Below, one piece after another: positions 8,228-34,367 of a stretch of 39,811 bases of DNA. The stretch covers positions 1 to 39,811 of the forward strand of contig VBIL01000161.1 in assembly GCA_005879975.1 (NCBI GenBank), given 5' to 3'. The notes below the pieces were generated by a model. It searched no databases. It saw nothing but the letters and a program-made list of their open reading frames with translations, and was not told the origin of the DNA. A program made the position numbers and the translations under genes. Numbering within the stretch: position 1 is the stretch's first letter; every line of letters starts with the position of its first letter. The stretch comes from Chloroflexota bacterium (GTDB taxonomy: Bacteria > Chloroflexota > Limnocylindria > P2-11E).

Positions 8228-9508
8228 ATGGCTGACTTCGAAGCCCGAGCTCGCAAAGTCCTCCCGCCCGTCCTTGGGCACTACACCTGGTTGCAGATCG
8301 ATCGCGGCGAAGGAAGCTGGCTCGTCACATCTGATGGCCGCCGCGTCCTGGATCTCACCTGCGGGATCGCGGTCACCGTCGTCGGACACGCGCATCCGCG
8401 CGTGGTCAAAGCGGTGACCGAGCAGGCCGCGAGGCTCATGCACATCTCCACCGGCGTCGCGAAGTACGAGTCGAGCGTCGCGCTCGCGGAGATGCTTGCG
8501 ACGGTTACGCCTCGCGGACTCGATACCGCGTTCTTTGGGAACAGCGGCGCCGAGGCGGTGGAGGGCGCGATCAAGCTGGCACGTCAGACGACCGGTCGCG
8601 AGGCGATCATCGCGTTCCGTGGCGGTTTTCACGGGCGGACCGTCGGTGCCGCGACGCTCACCACATCGAAGGCGCAGTACCGCCGCGGGTATGGCGCGCT
8701 CCTACCCGAGGTCTATGTGGCGCCGTATCCCTACGCGCTGGCGTGCGCGCTCCCGGATCCGCACGATGCCGAGGCCTGCGCCGAACACTGCTATGCGGAG
8801 CTCGAAGCGATGCTCGAGCACGAAGTGCCGCCAGAACACGTCGCCGCGATCTTTGTCGAGCCGGTGCTTGGCGAGGGCGGCTACGTCGCCGCGCCCGCGT
8901 CCTTTATCAGTCGCCTCCGCGAGCTCGCGACCAAGATCGGCGCGCTCCTCGTGTTCGACGAGGTGCAGACGGGCATGGGCCGCACCGGCGCGTGGTTCGC
9001 GGCGCAGAAGTTCGGGGTGACCCCGGACGTGATGACGCTCGCCAAGGCTCTCGGCGGTGGGATGCCGCTCGGTGCGGTGGTGTCGACGCGCGAACGCATG
9101 GAGCGGTGGCGTACCGGCACTCATGGCTCGACGTTCGGAGGAAATCCGGTGTCATGCGCATCCGGGCTCGCGACGATGCAGGTCATTCGCGACGACGGTC
9201 TTGTCGGGCGCGCCGATACGCTCGGCGCGCTCATGGTGGAGGAGCTTGCGGCACTACGATCGCATCCCCGCGTCCGTGAGATCCGCCGTTTCGGCGCGAT
9301 GGTCGCGGTCGAGTTCGACGAGAAGTCGGCGGCGAAGGCTGCGATCGCAGCCGCGCTCGAGAAAGATGTTCTGCTCATCACCTGCGGATTCCACGATCAA
9401 GTGGTCCGCTTCATTCCGGCGCTGAACATCCGCGAGGACGACCTTCGCAAAGGCGTTCGCGTCTTCGTCGAGGCCGCGCGGGCTGTACAAATCGCTGCGC
9501 CCGCTTAG
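8228..9508 (+). CDS. Class III PLP aminotransferase (GABA/ornithine-type)
   Basis: 426 residues, the usual length for the family. It shows the substrate/PLP loop NSGAEAVEGAIK, the FRGGFHGRT motif, VEPVLGEGG, the PLP-oxygen-binding FDEVQTG, and the Schiff-base lysine in TLAKALGGGMP. C-terminal elements THGSTFGGNPVSCAS and GLAT fit 4-aminobutyrate/5-aminovalerate and ornithine-family aminotransferases. It differs from the second class III enzyme in this window (lysJ) by an insertion of ~20 residues after APYPYALACALP, a segment common in GabT-like enzymes. The start at 8228 is preferred over the track start at 8123, which would overlap the previous gene. The amino donor cannot be decided from the sequence. 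Confidence 0.88.
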   Translation: MADFEARARKVLPPVLGHYTWLQIDRGEGSWLVTSDGRRVLDLTCGIAVTVVGHAHPRVVKAVTEQAARLMHISTGVAKYESSVALAEMLATVTPRGLDTAFFGNSGAEAVEGAIKLARQTTGREAIIAFRGGFHGRTVGAATLTTSKAQYRRGYGALLPEVYVAPYPYALACALPDPHDAEACAEHCYAELEAMLEHEVPPEHVAAIFVEPVLGEGGYVAAPASFISRLRELATKIGALLVFDEVQTGMGRTGAWFAAQKFGVTPDVMTLAKALGGGMPLGAVVSTRERMERWRTGTHGSTFGGNPVSCASGLATMQVIRDDGLVGRADTLGALMVEELAALRSHPRVREIRRFGAMVAVEFDEKSAAKAAIAAALEKDVLLITCGFHDQVVRFIPALNIREDDLRKGVRVFVEAARAVQIAAPA

Positions 9509-9514
9509 TCAGCC

Positions 9515-9532
9515 GCGACCGCTTCCGGTCGC
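9515..9532 (+). other. Small hairpin after the aminotransferase stop
   Basis: gcgaccg/cggtcgc forms a 7-bp stem with a 4-nt loop, 6 nt after the stop codon. No T-run follows, so intrinsic termination is uncertain. It may simply protect the 3' end. Confidence 0.3.
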
Positions 9533-9600
9533 AACGGCCAGCCCTCGTTCGCCAGTCCGATACCATATCTGGGGCCGGTGACATTGATGACCCCTAGCCC

Positions 9601-9630
9601 TTGACATCGCCTCATCGACGGGACTAAGGT
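9601..9630 (+). promoter_or_regulatory. Putative nrdJ promoter
   Basis: A perfect TTGACA at 9601-9606 is followed after 18 nt by TAAGGT at 9625-9630, the only consensus -35 box seen in the 321-nt gap before nrdJ. Transcription would start near 9637, leaving a leader of about 190 nt before nrdJ. No NrdR box or cobalamin riboswitch motif was recognised in that leader. Confidence 0.5.
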
Positions 9631-9702
9631 CCGTTGTCTGCGCCGCTAGATGTTGGGCCTGACCGGGCGGCTGGGCCCAGATGTAGTGGTCGAGCGGGAA
9701 GG

Positions 9703-9776
9703 GTAGAAGGAGGGTCAAATAATGACCCGTCGGTCGTTCACTTCCGCGCCCATCGAAAAGCTTCTTCTCCTTCTAC
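9703..9776 (+). promoter_or_regulatory. Leader stem sequestering the leader-ORF ribosome-binding site
   Basis: gtagaaggag (9703-9712), which contains the Shine-Dalgarno of the small ORF, is exactly complementary to ctccttctac (9767-9776), which lies inside that ORF's leucine-codon run. Two further G-U pairs extend it inward (9713-9714 with 9766-9765) and one outward. The 13-bp helix would hide the SD and enclose the ATG at 9722 in the loop. Whether it forms in vivo is untested. Confidence 0.5.
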
Positions 9777-9817
9777 TAAAGGCGATCTCGAGCGCGTCAA
9801 ACATCGCGGCTTTCTAG
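9722..9817 (+). CDS. Putative 31-residue Leu-rich leader peptide upstream of nrdJ
   Basis: An ATG with a strong GGAGGG Shine-Dalgarno (9709-9714) 7 nt upstream opens a 31-codon ORF: MTRRSFTSAPIEK, six leucines, then KAISSASNIAAF. The leucines are encoded CTT CTT CTC CTT CTA CTA, using codons that look scarce in this GC-rich genome, where CTC and CTG dominate. The stop TAG at 9815-9817 overlaps the AGGGGG ribosome-binding site of nrdJ, and only 12 nt separate it from the nrdJ ATG. Termination or stalling here could therefore control nrdJ initiation. It is too short for the ORF track and I know of no homologue. It could be a regulatory leader or a chance ORF; the SD, codon run and pairing together make chance less likely. 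Confidence 0.5.
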   Translation: MTRRSFTSAPIEKLLLLLLKAISSASNIAAF

Positions 9818-9829
9818 GGGGCAATACCC

Positions 9830-12628
9830 ATGGCTATCGCCGACCTTGCGCAGGAGTCCGTTCAACGCGCCGAGCCGCGGGGTCTTCGGTTCACCCGCCG
9901 CTTCACCCGGCCGGGTGTCCATCCGTACGACGAGCTCGAATGGGAGCTTCGTGATTCGGCAATCCCCGGCGAAGGCGGCAACGTCTTCGAGCAGAAGGGC
10001 GTCGAGGTACCCAAGTTCTGGTCGCAGACCGCGACGAACGTCGTAGCGTCCAAGTACTTCCGCGGCAAGCTCGGCTCGCCGGTCCGCGAGTGGAGCGTCA
10101 AGCAGATGGTCGACCGCGTGGTCGACACGATCGCGCGCGCGGGCCTGCAAGGCGGCTACTTCGCGAGTGAGGCCGACCGTGACATCTTCGCCGACGAGCT
10201 CAAATACCTCATGGTCCACCAGAACGCGTCCTTCAACTCACCGGTGTGGTTCAACATCGGCGTCGAAGGCGTCCCCCAACAGGCGTCAGCCTGCTTCATC
10301 CTGTCCGTCGAGGACGACATGCACTCGATCCTCGACTGGTTCGGGAACGAAGGGATCATCTTCAAGGGCGGCTCCGGGTCCGGGGTCAACGTCTCGAGGA
10401 TCCGCAGTCAGCGGGAGCAGCTCTCCGGTGGCGGATACGCGTCGGGTCCGGTGTCGTTCATGCGCGGCGCGGACTCTGTTGCCGGCTCGATAAAGTCCGG
10501 CGGGACGACGCGGCGCGCGGCGAAGATGGTGATCCTCGACGCCGACCACCCGGACGTGCACGAATTCATTTGGTGCAAGGCCAAGGAAGAGAAGAAGGCC
10601 TGGGCCCTCGGCGAGATGGGCTACGACATGAGCCTCAACGGCGAGGCCTGGCACTCCATCCAGTTCCAGAACGCCAACAACTCCGTCCGTGTCACCGACG
10701 AGTTCATGAAGAAGGCCAAGGCCGACGAGGACTGGGAGCTTACCGCGCGTGTCAGCGGAGCGGTCCTCGAGACGGTGAAGGCTCGTGCGCTGCTTCGCGA
10801 GATCGCGGAGGCCGCGTGGGAATGCGGCGATCCGGGCATGCAGTTCGACACGACGATCAACGACTGGCACACGTCGCCCGAGTCGGGGCGCATCAACGGG
10901 TCTAATCCCTGTAGCGAGTACATGAGCATCGACGACTCGGCCTGCAACCTCGCGTCGATGAACCTCATGCGATTCCTCCACAGCGACGGTGAGTTCGACG
11001 TCGAGCGCTTCCGCGGTGCGGTCGAGCTCGTCTTCACCGCGCAGGAGATCCTCGTCGGCCACTCGGACTACCCGACCGCGCGGATCGCTGAGAACGCCCG
11101 GACGCACCGGCAGCTCGGACTCGGATACGCGAACCTCGGCGCGTTGCTCATGCAGCGCGGACTGCCATACGACTCGAACGAAGGTCGGGGCTATGCCGCC
11201 GCCGTGACCGCGCTGATGACCGGTGCCGCATACGCGCAGTCGGCGCGCATCGCCGAGGCGGTCGGACCGTACGAGGCGTATCCCAGGAACAGGGACGCGC
11301 ATGACCGCGTCATCCAGATGCACCGGCTGCACGCCTACCGGATCCGCGACGAGCTCTTGCCTGCGAGCCTCCTTTCGGCGGCGCGCCAGGCATGGGACGA
11401 CGCGGCAGCGTTCGGGAAGCAGAGCGGGTACCGGAATGCGCAGGCCTCGGTCCTCGCGCCGACCGGCACGATCAGTTTCATGATGGATTGCGATACGACG
11501 GGCGTCGAGCCGGACATCGCGCTCGTGAAGTTCAAGAAGCTCGTCGGCGGCGGAATGCTCAAGCTCGTCAACGGGACGGTTCCCGCCGCGTTGCGCCGGC
11601 TCGGCTACACCGAGACCGAGGCCGGTACGATCACGACCTACATCGAGCAGTACGGGATGATCGAAGGGGCGCCGGGTCTCGATCCCGAGCACCTCGCCGT
11701 ATTTGACTGCGCGTTCAAGCCGCAGAACGGCGAGCGCTCGATCCATCACATGGGTCACATCAAGATGATGGGCGCCGTCCAGCCGTTCATCTCTGGCGCG
11801 ATCAGTAAGACGGTGAATCTTCCGGAGAAGGCGAGCGTCGATGACGTCGCTGAGGCATACATGGAGGCGTGGAAGCACGGCCTGAAAGCGATCGCGATCT
11901 ACCGCGACGGCAGCAAGAAGGTCCAGCCGGTCAACACGAGCAACAAAGAAGCGAACACGAAGGCCGGCGCGACCATCGTGGAACGGATCGTCGAGGTGGC
12001 GCGACCGCCGCGCCGGCGCCTAGCTGACACGCGCGCGTCGCTCACGCATAAGTTCTCAATCGAGGGACACGAGGGCTACATCACCGTAGGGCTCTTCGAG
12101 GACAACACACCGGGCGAGCTCTTCGTGACGATGGCGAAGGAAGGTTCGACGCTCTCCGGGATGATGGACGCATTCGCGACGAGCGTGTCGCTTCTCTTCC
12201 AGTATGGCGTCCCCCTTTCGCACCTCGTCGAGAAGTTCGGTCACATGCGCTTCGAGCCCGCTGGATGGACAGGCAATCCCGAGATCGGTTTCGCGAAGTC
12301 GATCGTCGACTACGTCTTCCGCTGGTTGGGGAACCGCTTCCTTTCACAGGAGGAGCGCGCAGCGCTCGGGCTCGTTCGCACCACCGAAGTCGCCGACGTC
12401 GGGCCGCAGCTCGAGCTCCTGAACCGCGTCGTCGAGCTCGCCGCCCCGGACGCGCCTGCGCAGACCGCGAATGGCAACGGACAGACGGAGGCGCCTGCGG
12501 TCCACGCGTACCGTCGACTCAATTCCACACCCGACGCGCCGCCATGTCCGCGCTGCGGCTGGTTGACCGTTCGAAGCGGCACCTGCCACAAGTGCGAGAA
12601 CTGCGGGGAAACGACCGGGTGTAGCTAA
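9830..12628 (+). CDS. nrdJ: Adenosylcobalamin-dependent class II ribonucleoside-diphosphate reductase
   Basis: 932 residues; makes deoxyribonucleotides using B12 as the radical source. The N-terminal region has WFNIGV and the redox cysteine in QQASACFILSVEDDM. The phosphate-binding IIFKGGSGSGVNVSRIR follows. The catalytic finger loop is in NPCSEYMSIDDSACNLASMNL, and GTISFMMDCDTTGVEPD lies further on. A C-terminal segment after ~residue 740 belongs to the long NrdJ form. The last 30 residues carry a CPRCGW-x-CHKCENCG zinc-ribbon/redox tail that recycles the active-site disulfide in long class II enzymes. The ATG at 9830 has AGGGGG 8 nt upstream. A putative promoter and leader ORF precede it and a strong terminator follows, so it is probably monocistronic apart from the leader. 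Confidence 0.97.
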   Translation: MAIADLAQESVQRAEPRGLRFTRRFTRPGVHPYDELEWELRDSAIPGEGGNVFEQKGVEVPKFWSQTATNVVASKYFRGKLGSPVREWSVKQMVDRVVDTIARAGLQGGYFASEADRDIFADELKYLMVHQNASFNSPVWFNIGVEGVPQQASACFILSVEDDMHSILDWFGNEGIIFKGGSGSGVNVSRIRSQREQLSGGGYASGPVSFMRGADSVAGSIKSGGTTRRAAKMVILDADHPDVHEFIWCKAKEEKKAWALGEMGYDMSLNGEAWHSIQFQNANNSVRVTDEFMKKAKADEDWELTARVSGAVLETVKARALLREIAEAAWECGDPGMQFDTTINDWHTSPESGRINGSNPCSEYMSIDDSACNLASMNLMRFLHSDGEFDVERFRGAVELVFTAQEILVGHSDYPTARIAENARTHRQLGLGYANLGALLMQRGLPYDSNEGRGYAAAVTALMTGAAYAQSARIAEAVGPYEAYPRNRDAHDRVIQMHRLHAYRIRDELLPASLLSAARQAWDDAAAFGKQSGYRNAQASVLAPTGTISFMMDCDTTGVEPDIALVKFKKLVGGGMLKLVNGTVPAALRRLGYTETEAGTITTYIEQYGMIEGAPGLDPEHLAVFDCAFKPQNGERSIHHMGHIKMMGAVQPFISGAISKTVNLPEKASVDDVAEAYMEAWKHGLKAIAIYRDGSKKVQPVNTSNKEANTKAGATIVERIVEVARPPRRRLADTRASLTHKFSIEGHEGYITVGLFEDNTPGELFVTMAKEGSTLSGMMDAFATSVSLLFQYGVPLSHLVEKFGHMRFEPAGWTGNPEIGFAKSIVDYVFRWLGNRFLSQEERAALGLVRTTEVADVGPQLELLNRVVELAAPDAPAQTANGNGQTEAPAVHAYRRLNSTPDAPPCPRCGWLTVRSGTCHKCENCGETTGCS

Positions 12629-12839: not shown

Positions 12840-12997
12840 CAAATCAGTCGCGCGAACTACGGAACGACGCTGACACTTCGTTCGTCTAGAAGAGAAGACA
12901 GAGTCACCCGTCGAGCAGACAGCCGACCGCTATGCGGCACGCGCCTTGCTCGATCGATGGGATGAGCGGCAAGACGCTCGGGGAGGTACGAACGCAC

Positions 12998-14818
12998 ATG
13001 GCGGTCTTCGCGCGAAGCGGCGAACGAGCCTCCTCTCGCCGCGGCAGTCCCTGGAAATTTGTTCTCGCGCCGCTCGTCGTTCTGCTGATGGCGCTCGGCT
13101 TCGCGGTCGCCGCCGAAGCGGCATACGCAGAGCGTGCGCTGCCTGGGATGTCCGTTGGCGGGATCGCGATCGGATCGCTCGAGAAAGCCGCGCTCCGCGA
13201 GCACTTGGACCTGGAGCTCGCGGCGCCATGGGCTGGTGCGACGGTCACGCTCTCCGACGGTGGGACGAGTTGGCGGGCGACGAACGCGGATCTGGGGATC
13301 GCCCCCGATCTCGATGCCGCGGTCGGCGCGGCCCTCGCCTACGGCAAGACGGGCAGTGTCCTGGATCGTGTCGGCGCCTGGATCGATGCCCTGCGCGGCG
13401 AGGCCGACATCCCGTTCACGATGCGATCCCGGGGAGACGCTCTCGATCGCTGGGTCGCCGCGGCCGCCCGCGACGTCGATCGGGCGCCGGTCTCGGGTGA
13501 GCTCCGGGTGACGGCCAGGGGTCTCGAAGCCACGAAGCCGGCCCTCGGTCGTGAGGTTGACCGTGTCGCCACCGTCGCCTCACTCCTCTCGGCCGACTCC
13601 CTCGGCGACCGCGAGGTCAGGCTCCGCGTTCGCTTCGCGTATCCAGCCGTCGACGCCTCAGGTTTCGATGATGCATATGCGCTCGCGTCCGCGGTCGTGA
13701 CACCCCTCACCGTGACCGTCGAGGATCGGACATGGAATGAAGGCGCGACTGGTCTCGCGTCGCTCCTTGTCGTCGAGCGCGTCGCGGCGAAAGGCGGCGA
13801 GCTACCGGCGATCCCCGGAGAGGCGATCGCGCCGTCGGTCCGCTATCGCTACACGGTTTCGCTTGCGAACGAGCGCGTCGCGTCGTGGGTCGCGGCGCTC
13901 GGCAAGGTTCTCGATCATCCCGGCAAGTGCGCGAAGTACCAGGTGAGCGCCGAAAGCGCGGTCACCGTCATCCCGTCCGAAAGCGGAGTGCGCGTGGACC
14001 AAGCGAAGCTGCGCGCGCTCTTCCTCGAGGAGCTGCTCCGGCCCGCGGCCGGGCCCACTCGTGAGGTCGCGGCCCCAGCCACGGTCGACGCATCGGCGTT
14101 CACGACCGAACAGGCGAAAGAGCTCGCGCCGAAGCTCTCTCTGGCTTCGACCTTCACGACGTACTACCCGCCGAGCGCGTCGCGTCACGCGAACATCTCG
14201 ACTGGCGCGACGCAGTTCGACGGCGTCGTGGTCATGCCCGGGGAGACCTTCTCCTTCTGGGAGCTGCTCGGCCCGGTCACGGTCGAACGGGGATACTCGT
14301 ATGCCGGGGCGATCATCAACAACAGGTCCGACGAGAACGTGATCGGGGGCGGCCTCTGCCAGGTATCGACGACGATCTTCAACGCCATCTCGCAGCAGGG
14401 CTACGAGATCGTCGAGCGTCACGCCCACGGCTACTACATCGATCGTTATCCGATCGGCTACGACGCGGCGGTGTTCGAGCCGGGCGTGGACTTCAAGTGG
14501 CGCAACGACACCGCGAACCCGGTGTTCATCTACTCGTGGAGCGGCGACACCTGGCTCAAGATCGATGTGTGGACAATCCCGACCGGACGCAACGTCGTTG
14601 TGAGCGGGGCGACGCAGAAGAACTTCGTCCACCCAGCGCCGGACCAGCCGGCCGATCCCGCATTCCTCCGGGGAGCGAGCGTCGACGGCCGCGACGTGTT
14701 CCGCACGCGGACCGTCTACGAGAACGGCAAAGTGCTGCATCAGGACTTCTTCGCGAGCCACTACGCGCCCGTCTGGGGCGGACCGCTCCCGGCGCCCGCG
14801 ACGCCGCCGACGCCTTAA
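12998..14818 (+). CDS. VanW-family protein with peptidoglycan-binding-like repeats
   Basis: 606 residues from the ATG at 12998, which has GGGAGGT 11 nt upstream; an alternative ATG at 12962 would add 12. A basic N-terminus and one hydrophobic helix (FVLAPLVVLLMALGFAVAAEA) act as signal anchor, so the rest is extracytoplasmic. LPGMSVGGIAIGSL opens a PG_binding_4 (YoaR-like) module, and a second such module lies near residues 200-370. The VanW core has FDGVVVMPGETFSFWE, GYSYAGAIINN, GGGLCQVSTTIFNAI, VERHAHGYYI and YPIGYDAAVFEP. A C-terminal G5-like stretch and a Pro tail close it. The family is linked to cell-wall biology and glycopeptide resistance clusters, but its biochemistry is unknown. 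The protein stands alone here, with no van ligase genes nearby, so resistance should not be inferred. Confidence 0.9.
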   Translation: MAVFARSGERASSRRGSPWKFVLAPLVVLLMALGFAVAAEAAYAERALPGMSVGGIAIGSLEKAALREHLDLELAAPWAGATVTLSDGGTSWRATNADLGIAPDLDAAVGAALAYGKTGSVLDRVGAWIDALRGEADIPFTMRSRGDALDRWVAAAARDVDRAPVSGELRVTARGLEATKPALGREVDRVATVASLLSADSLGDREVRLRVRFAYPAVDASGFDDAYALASAVVTPLTVTVEDRTWNEGATGLASLLVVERVAAKGGELPAIPGEAIAPSVRYRYTVSLANERVASWVAALGKVLDHPGKCAKYQVSAESAVTVIPSESGVRVDQAKLRALFLEELLRPAAGPTREVAAPATVDASAFTTEQAKELAPKLSLASTFTTYYPPSASRHANISTGATQFDGVVVMPGETFSFWELLGPVTVERGYSYAGAIINNRSDENVIGGGLCQVSTTIFNAISQQGYEIVERHAHGYYIDRYPIGYDAAVFEPGVDFKWRNDTANPVFIYSWSGDTWLKIDVWTIPTGRNVVVSGATQKNFVHPAPDQPADPAFLRGASVDGRDVFRTRTVYENGKVLHQDFFASHYAPVWGGPLPAPATPPTP

Positions 14819-34280: not shown

Positions 34281-34284
34281 TCCG

Positions 34285-34367
34285 TGGGCGAGGAGGGACT
34301 CGAACCCTCACGCTCTTTCGAGCACAAGACCCTAAATCTTGCGCGTATTCCGTTTCGCCACTCGCCC
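34285..34367 (-). tRNA. tRNA-Leu (anticodon TAG)
   Basis: Class II tRNA on the minus strand. The acceptor GGGCGAG pairs with CTCGCCC. The anticodon stem CAAGA/TCTTG carries the loop TTTAGGG, anticodon TAG, which reads CTA and, by wobble, other CTN codons. The long variable arm is TGCTCGAAAGAGCGT, and the T-arm GAGGGTTCGAGTCCCTC. The CCA end is not encoded. Confidence 0.95.

Follow-up and report, generated by a model that had tools for sequence, protein, structure and literature searches.

In the 39,811-nucleotide stretch of Chloroflexota DNA analysed here (the window), nrdJ, the gene for a B12-dependent ribonucleotide reductase (RNR), is preceded by a short open reading frame (ORF) that we take, with a probability of about 0.55, to be a self-gated leader coupled to nrdJ by termination-reinitiation and placed under the transcriptional control of NrdR. 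Comparison of upstream sequences indicates that the leader is conserved within a single family of uncultured Chloroflexota from soil and is not a product of chance. The features of the locus are listed below (SD, Shine-Dalgarno sequence; SD1, that of the leader).

9601 to 9630, plus strand: predicted promoter, TTGACA, 18 nt, TAAGGT (from the sequence)
9643 to 9658, unstranded: NrdR box 1, CTAGATGTTG, conserved pair C9646/G9655; core same in most relatives
9674 to 9689, unstranded: NrdR box 2, CCAGATGTAG, conserved pair C9677/G9686; same basis as box 1
9703 to 9714, plus strand: SD1 and purine tract, GTAGAAGGAGGG, the 5' arm of the predicted helix
9722 to 9817, plus strand: leader ORF, 31 codons and TAG; orthologues in 18 of 18 leaders
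9761 to 9778, plus strand: Leu run of six codons; pyrimidine tract as candidate anti-SD, the 3' arm of the predicted helix
9815 to 9829, plus strand: leader stop overlapping the nrdJ SD (TAGGGGG), and spacer
9830 to 12628, plus strand: nrdJ, class II RNR (NF005122, TIGR02504)

The leader ORF (9722-9817) encodes the peptide MTRRSFTSAPIEKLLLLLLKAISSASNIAAF followed by its stop. It is led by the SD GGAGGG (9709-9714), carries the Leu codons CTT CTT CTC CTT CTA CTA (9761-9778) and ends in a TAG (9815-9817) that begins the heptamer TAGGGGG, the likely SD of nrdJ, 12 nt ahead of the nrdJ ATG (9830). A preliminary description of this DNA had pointed out the 31-codon ORF, its SD, the six Leu codons and the stop lying over the nrdJ SD, and its coordinates and letters are correct. 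The exact 10-nt reverse complementarity that it saw between gtagaaggag (9703-9712) and ctccttctac (9767-9776) was likewise confirmed. The nrdJ product matched the NF005122 profile with 1432 bits. SD1, which relatives keep together with its purine tract as the 5' arm, has a stronger predicted 16S pairing than the nrdJ SD. No terminator-like site was found in 9500-9900, in agreement with the preliminary description, which had concluded that control would therefore be translational; transcription attenuation of the leuL/ilvL type was rejected on this ground. The leader did not match any curated covariance model in Rfam, including that of the cobalamin riboswitch, and a riboswitch or other known RNA family was rejected. 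The next gene 3' of nrdJ (12932-14818) encodes a large protein whose VanW-like domain scores below the NCBIfam cut-offs.

To compare relatives, regions upstream of nrdJ were gathered through NrdJ from 61 genomes of the class; the named near relatives are Chloroflexota metagenome-assembled genomes (MAGs). Eighteen leaders were obtained from three genera: g1, the genus of the window (11 genomes), g7 (five) and g3 (two). None of the 18 has lost the SD, the start codon, the Leu core, the in-frame length or the stop next to the nrdJ SD; all have SD-led orthologous ORFs of 31-38 codons, whose length changes preserve the frame. The stop lies 16 to 4 nt 5' of the nrdJ start throughout, and at -16 to -13 in 17 of them, which bears out the proposed tie between the stop and the nrdJ SD. 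Inside the clade, orthologous regions retain both the ORF and the complementarity, whose loss the preliminary description had named as evidence against it. By comparison, then, the family features supported are the leader ORF, a stop that overlaps the nrdJ SD, a constrained Leu tract and the NrdR boxes. In addition, all 18 leaders place the stop of an SD-led ORF within or close to the downstream SD, which points to translational coupling.

Leader and nrdJ share one frame in most of these loci, including that of the window (108 nt), where readthrough of the TAG would give a 36-residue extension of NrdJ. Since five leaders (L003, L010, L012, L111, L118) are out of frame with nrdJ, and the stops are conserved, both readthrough into nrdJ and a sequencing error were rejected. 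The nrdJ genes of seven relatives (G006, G010, G022, G023, G025, G017 and G028; loci L112-L116, L119 and L120) carry an in-frame interruption of about 1.1 kb, located at residue ~360 or at ~154, as expected for inteins; further nrdJ genes have one near ~548. The window nrdJ has no such insertion, and leader ORFs occur both with and without it.

Beyond the three genera, nrdJ in g8, g5 and one other-family genome was found without a leader ORF. There the nrdJ start lies, where such a box is clear, 65-85 nt past the first NrdR box, compared with ~180-206 nt where a leader is present, so that in the sister genera without the leader nrdJ sits ~100 nt closer to the boxes. In genus g6, too, the leader is short and contains no such ORF. 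In the NrdJ tree g1 groups with g7 (starred support) and g3 is their neighbour (weak support), and a single origin of the leader ORF is therefore likely. A scan of 81 more distant nrdJ loci revealed no similar ORF; overlapping frames occurred at one locus only (L087), without a Leu run.

Pattern and covariance-model searches placed the element at nrdJ in every genome of the genus, once per genome and at nrdJ only, and the covariance model detected no second copy at other genes in 177 genomes of the class. The model was trained on 14 leaders, and all 14 genomes that it matched contain training sequences. In a search of locus DNA it recovered the held-out leaders L114, L009 and L118 (E 2e-5 to 3e-3) and missed the held-out L012. 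The bare SD/anti-SD pattern gave a few matches elsewhere, at chance level.

The preliminary description did not include the NrdR boxes (~9643-9658 and ~9674-9689), which add a transcriptional layer. TTGACA and, at about equal distance from it, a TAnnnT-like element are present in nearly all relatives, and most carry a promoter and NrdR boxes of similar type 5' of nrdJ. The scores of this box and promoter scan are descriptive, because its consensus was derived from the very sequences scanned; a consensus promoter scan did not pick up the -10 element TAAGGT, which is too weak for it. The box cores (C9646/G9655 and C9677/G9686) lie exactly 31 bp apart. In the structure of Streptomyces coelicolor NrdR bound to DNA, the conserved G-C pairs 9/18 and 40/49 show the identical 31-bp spacing (PMC9110341). 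The nrdR gene is present in 10 of 10 other genomes of the genus and was not found in the window's own assembly, which is 83% complete. The locus thus has the marks of an NrdR-regulated nrd promoter, two boxes about three helical turns apart and an nrdR gene in the genus. The likeness to NrdR control of nrd operons (PMC9110341) lies in the paired boxes and the nrdR gene of the genus; NrdR acts on transcription, whereas the leader here would form an extra, post-transcriptional layer. In the predicted transcript both boxes (9643-9689) also fold as an RNA hairpin, because each box is nearly palindromic.

We then considered whether the Leu run is constrained as peptide or as nucleotide sequence. 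The pN/pS ratio is 0.21 in the Leu columns and 0.76 in the rest of the leader peptide, and a functional small protein was rejected because of this weak constraint outside the run. The central three codons are Leu in all 18 leaders, with nucleotide constraint mixed into this signal; g3 has CTA TTG CTT/CTC in place of CTC CTT CTT, the changes all being synonymous. The outer Leu positions vary (V, P, C, Y). The run has six Leu in most members of the genus, 3-4 in g7 and just a Pro-flanked LLL in L012. All 11 genus members have CTC as Leu codon 3 and CTT as Leu codon 4, so that the synonymous sites of these codons are invariant; among the fourfold nrdJ columns in the same genus, this holds for 3 of 51. 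CTG, which makes up 25% of Leu codons in the window genes, is absent from the run. The conservation of Leu across g3, the invariant synonymous sites and the missing CTG together make nucleotide and amino-acid constraints both plausible on sequence grounds; in g1 and g7 the evidence is better for the nucleotide constraint.

These patterns bear on a leucine (charged tRNA-Leu) attenuator, akin to the model of the preliminary description, in which slow Leu decoding under leucine shortage changes the number of ribosomes reaching the stop, or frees an SD, and thereby adjusts nrdJ. The central Leu codons shared by all three genera, with their purely synonymous differences in g3, and the six-codon run of most genus members speak for it, as does the Leu-run leader ORF of actinobacterial leuA, where the run also pairs with an SD (PMC1262725). 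However, nrdJ is not a leucine gene, the run shrinks in g7 and L012, and the codon choice tracks a pyrimidine tract; moreover, a modelled stalled ribosome leaves access to the nrdJ SD unchanged. Mutations in the S. coelicolor leuA leader are themselves reported to have had effects inconsistent with classical attenuation (PMC1262725). We therefore regard a leucine attenuator as unlikely. The window also contains a tRNA-Leu with anticodon TAG, which reads CTA (34284-34367, minus strand, 24 kb from nrdJ); its link to the leader is only a candidate one.

The folding of the leader was calculated for an RNA extending from ~45 nt 5' of the ORF to 36 nt inside nrdJ. The single-sequence fold is unexceptional (z = -0.97), and the case for the leader therefore rests on comparison. 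The mean cost of opening SD1 is 14.9 kcal/mol with no ribosome, 10.9 kcal/mol when the codons are shuffled and 9.3-9.9 kcal/mol when a ribosome occupies the Leu run. Sequestration of SD1 exceeds that in codon-shuffled leaders (Wilcoxon p = 0.001) and in leaders with synonymously recoded Leu runs (p = 0.048), p-values that are optimistic because the tested leaders are related; the observed run exceeds the recoded ones in every leader of g1 and g7 that was tested (11 of 11) and in 0 of 2 g3 leaders. The calculation therefore supports the earlier proposal that the leader SD is sequestered by its own Leu run, and self-gating is probably a property of this RNA. Other tests of the same helix gave less. 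Exchange of cognate for non-cognate partners of SD1 yielded p = 0.10 across 12 representative lineages and p = 0.017 across all 18 leaders, which are not independent, and the minimum-energy folds of L007 and L111 lack the SD1 helix. Pair counting detected no two-sided changes (0) and no covariation better than in shuffles, because both helix arms are too conserved. Thus, of what the preliminary description suggested looking for in an alignment of upstream regions, the conserved ORF and Leu run were found, and covarying stem pairs were not seen above controls.

An ordinary coupled leader is another way to read these data: the ORF would deliver ribosomes and raise or buffer nrdJ initiation, and the SD complementarity would be a by-product, arising wherever many Leu codons stand together in a genome rich in CTC. 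In such a genome every run of Leu codons would show some pairing with an SD; by duplex energy alone, the observed codons are mostly no better for SD1 than random Leu codons, and those drawn at genome usage pair with it nearly as well. The lack of proof by covariation also fits. We consider this reading doubtful: it would leave unexplained the invariant synonymous sites of Leu codons 3 and 4, the missing CTG and the stronger sequestration in every g1 and g7 leader tested against recoded runs.

The preliminary description further proposed that ribosome occupancy switches the SD helix between open and closed and sets reinitiation at nrdJ. In the model the leader SD does open, but access to the nrdJ SD does not change: its opening costs ~8.1 kcal/mol, and 8.2-8.5 kcal/mol once the Leu run carries a ribosome. 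This result weighs against a double anti-SD switch, in which the distal Leu codons pair with the stop and nrdJ SD (CUUCUA:UAGGGG) and stalling opens nrdJ in an erm-like manner. RNAalifold on 11 genus members does predict this second helix (kept in 92% of cells), and pairing falls, when both helices are taken together, if their partners are slid. Yet the observed run pairs no more strongly with the nrdJ SD than do random Leu codons or non-cognate partners, the swap of cognate for non-cognate partners has no effect there, and no two-sided changes were found. Because the recoding, partner-swap and opening-energy tests give it no support, we did not adopt the second helix and consider the double switch very improbable. 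The strength of the nrdJ SD is about equal to that in genera without the leader (p = 0.19); nrdJ may therefore not need coupling, and a weak nrdJ SD was dropped as proof of it.

Two further observations concern the leader start. Codon 2 is ACC, invariant in the genus, and in most same-genus leaders GGGTC 5' and GACCC 3' of the start (9712-9728) could form a small hairpin with the AUG in its loop, possibly a second layer on leader initiation.

The mechanism that we favour, the self-gated leader coupled to nrdJ, may work as follows. The nrdJ mRNA would begin at the NrdR-controlled promoter and carry a short ORF translated ahead of nrdJ. The Leu-codon stretch would act as an anti-SD segment that folds onto the leader's own SD, so that ribosome-free leader RNA closes its own entry site, and a ribosome crossing or pausing on the Leu codons would keep the helix open for the next. 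Ribosomes that finish the leader would stop inside the nrdJ SD, 12 nt 5' of its start, and either reinitiate or aid the next initiation. RNR synthesis would then be tied to ribosome loading, and perhaps to the speed of Leu-codon decoding, atop dATP sensing by NrdR. We infer that the leader is translated and coupled to nrdJ, and likewise the direction of the response. Leucine starvation could have opposed effects, as fewer completions would lower nrdJ expression and more open leader SDs would increase loading. Leucine sensing by the leader is possible; that its Leu codons both sense decoding and lock their own SD, placing a class II RNR under leucine control, we hold to be improbable.

The closest known system is the LEU element of actinobacterial leuA (Seliverstov et al. 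2005, PMC1262725), which shares the Leu-run leader ORF and the pairing of the run with an SD, translational control being one reading of it; the two would operate in a comparable manner. The nrdJ leader does not belong to this class, because in leuA the partner of the run, at a pseudoknot base, is the main gene's SD (PMC1262725), whereas at nrdJ the partner is the leader's own SD, which lies 5' of the run. The regulated gene is, in addition, an RNR in Chloroflexota; the element was found upstream of nrdJ only, not of leuA, and a search of the window's own genome with a leuA model gave weak matches only. Classical leaders of the leu/ilv type, to which the E. coli leuL leader peptide belongs, use terminator/antiterminator folds and control the biosynthesis of the amino acid that they sense. 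The Corynebacterium ilvB upstream ORF (uORF; PMC10272879) resembles the nrdJ leader in being a short leader ORF with branched-chain codons as the candidate signal. Unlike the leu/ilv leaders, that of nrdJ contains no terminator and is not linked to the synthesis of leucine. The erm-type translational attenuators include ermC. That of ermB (PMC8274638) likewise combines a leader ORF, an SD-sequestering helix and a ribosome position that selects the helix. The difference is that folding here supports gating of the leader's own SD and not that of the downstream gene. The iraD uORF (PMC5574718) is likewise short and coupled in translation to the gene that follows it, but there CsrA represses through the uORF, whereas the candidate controller at nrdJ is the leader's own coding sequence. 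We place the nrdJ leader as a variant of leader-ORF translational control in which the leader's own SD would be gated.

Bacterial RNR is known to be controlled mainly at transcription, by NrdR and others, or through B12 riboswitches and allostery. No precedent for control of nrdJ or other nrd genes by a leader peptide or uORF was found in the literature searched, and no Leu-run leader of a class II RNR, as the preliminary description had supposed. The leader is a small, testable construct and would, if the proposed mechanism is true, be of unusual design, the same codons being a message read by the ribosome and a lock on its entry site. If leucine control of the class II RNR were also true, it would link dNTP supply to translation status. 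With a conserved translational leader at nrdJ, RNR control would gain a direct link between the state of the ribosomes and the supply of DNA precursors.
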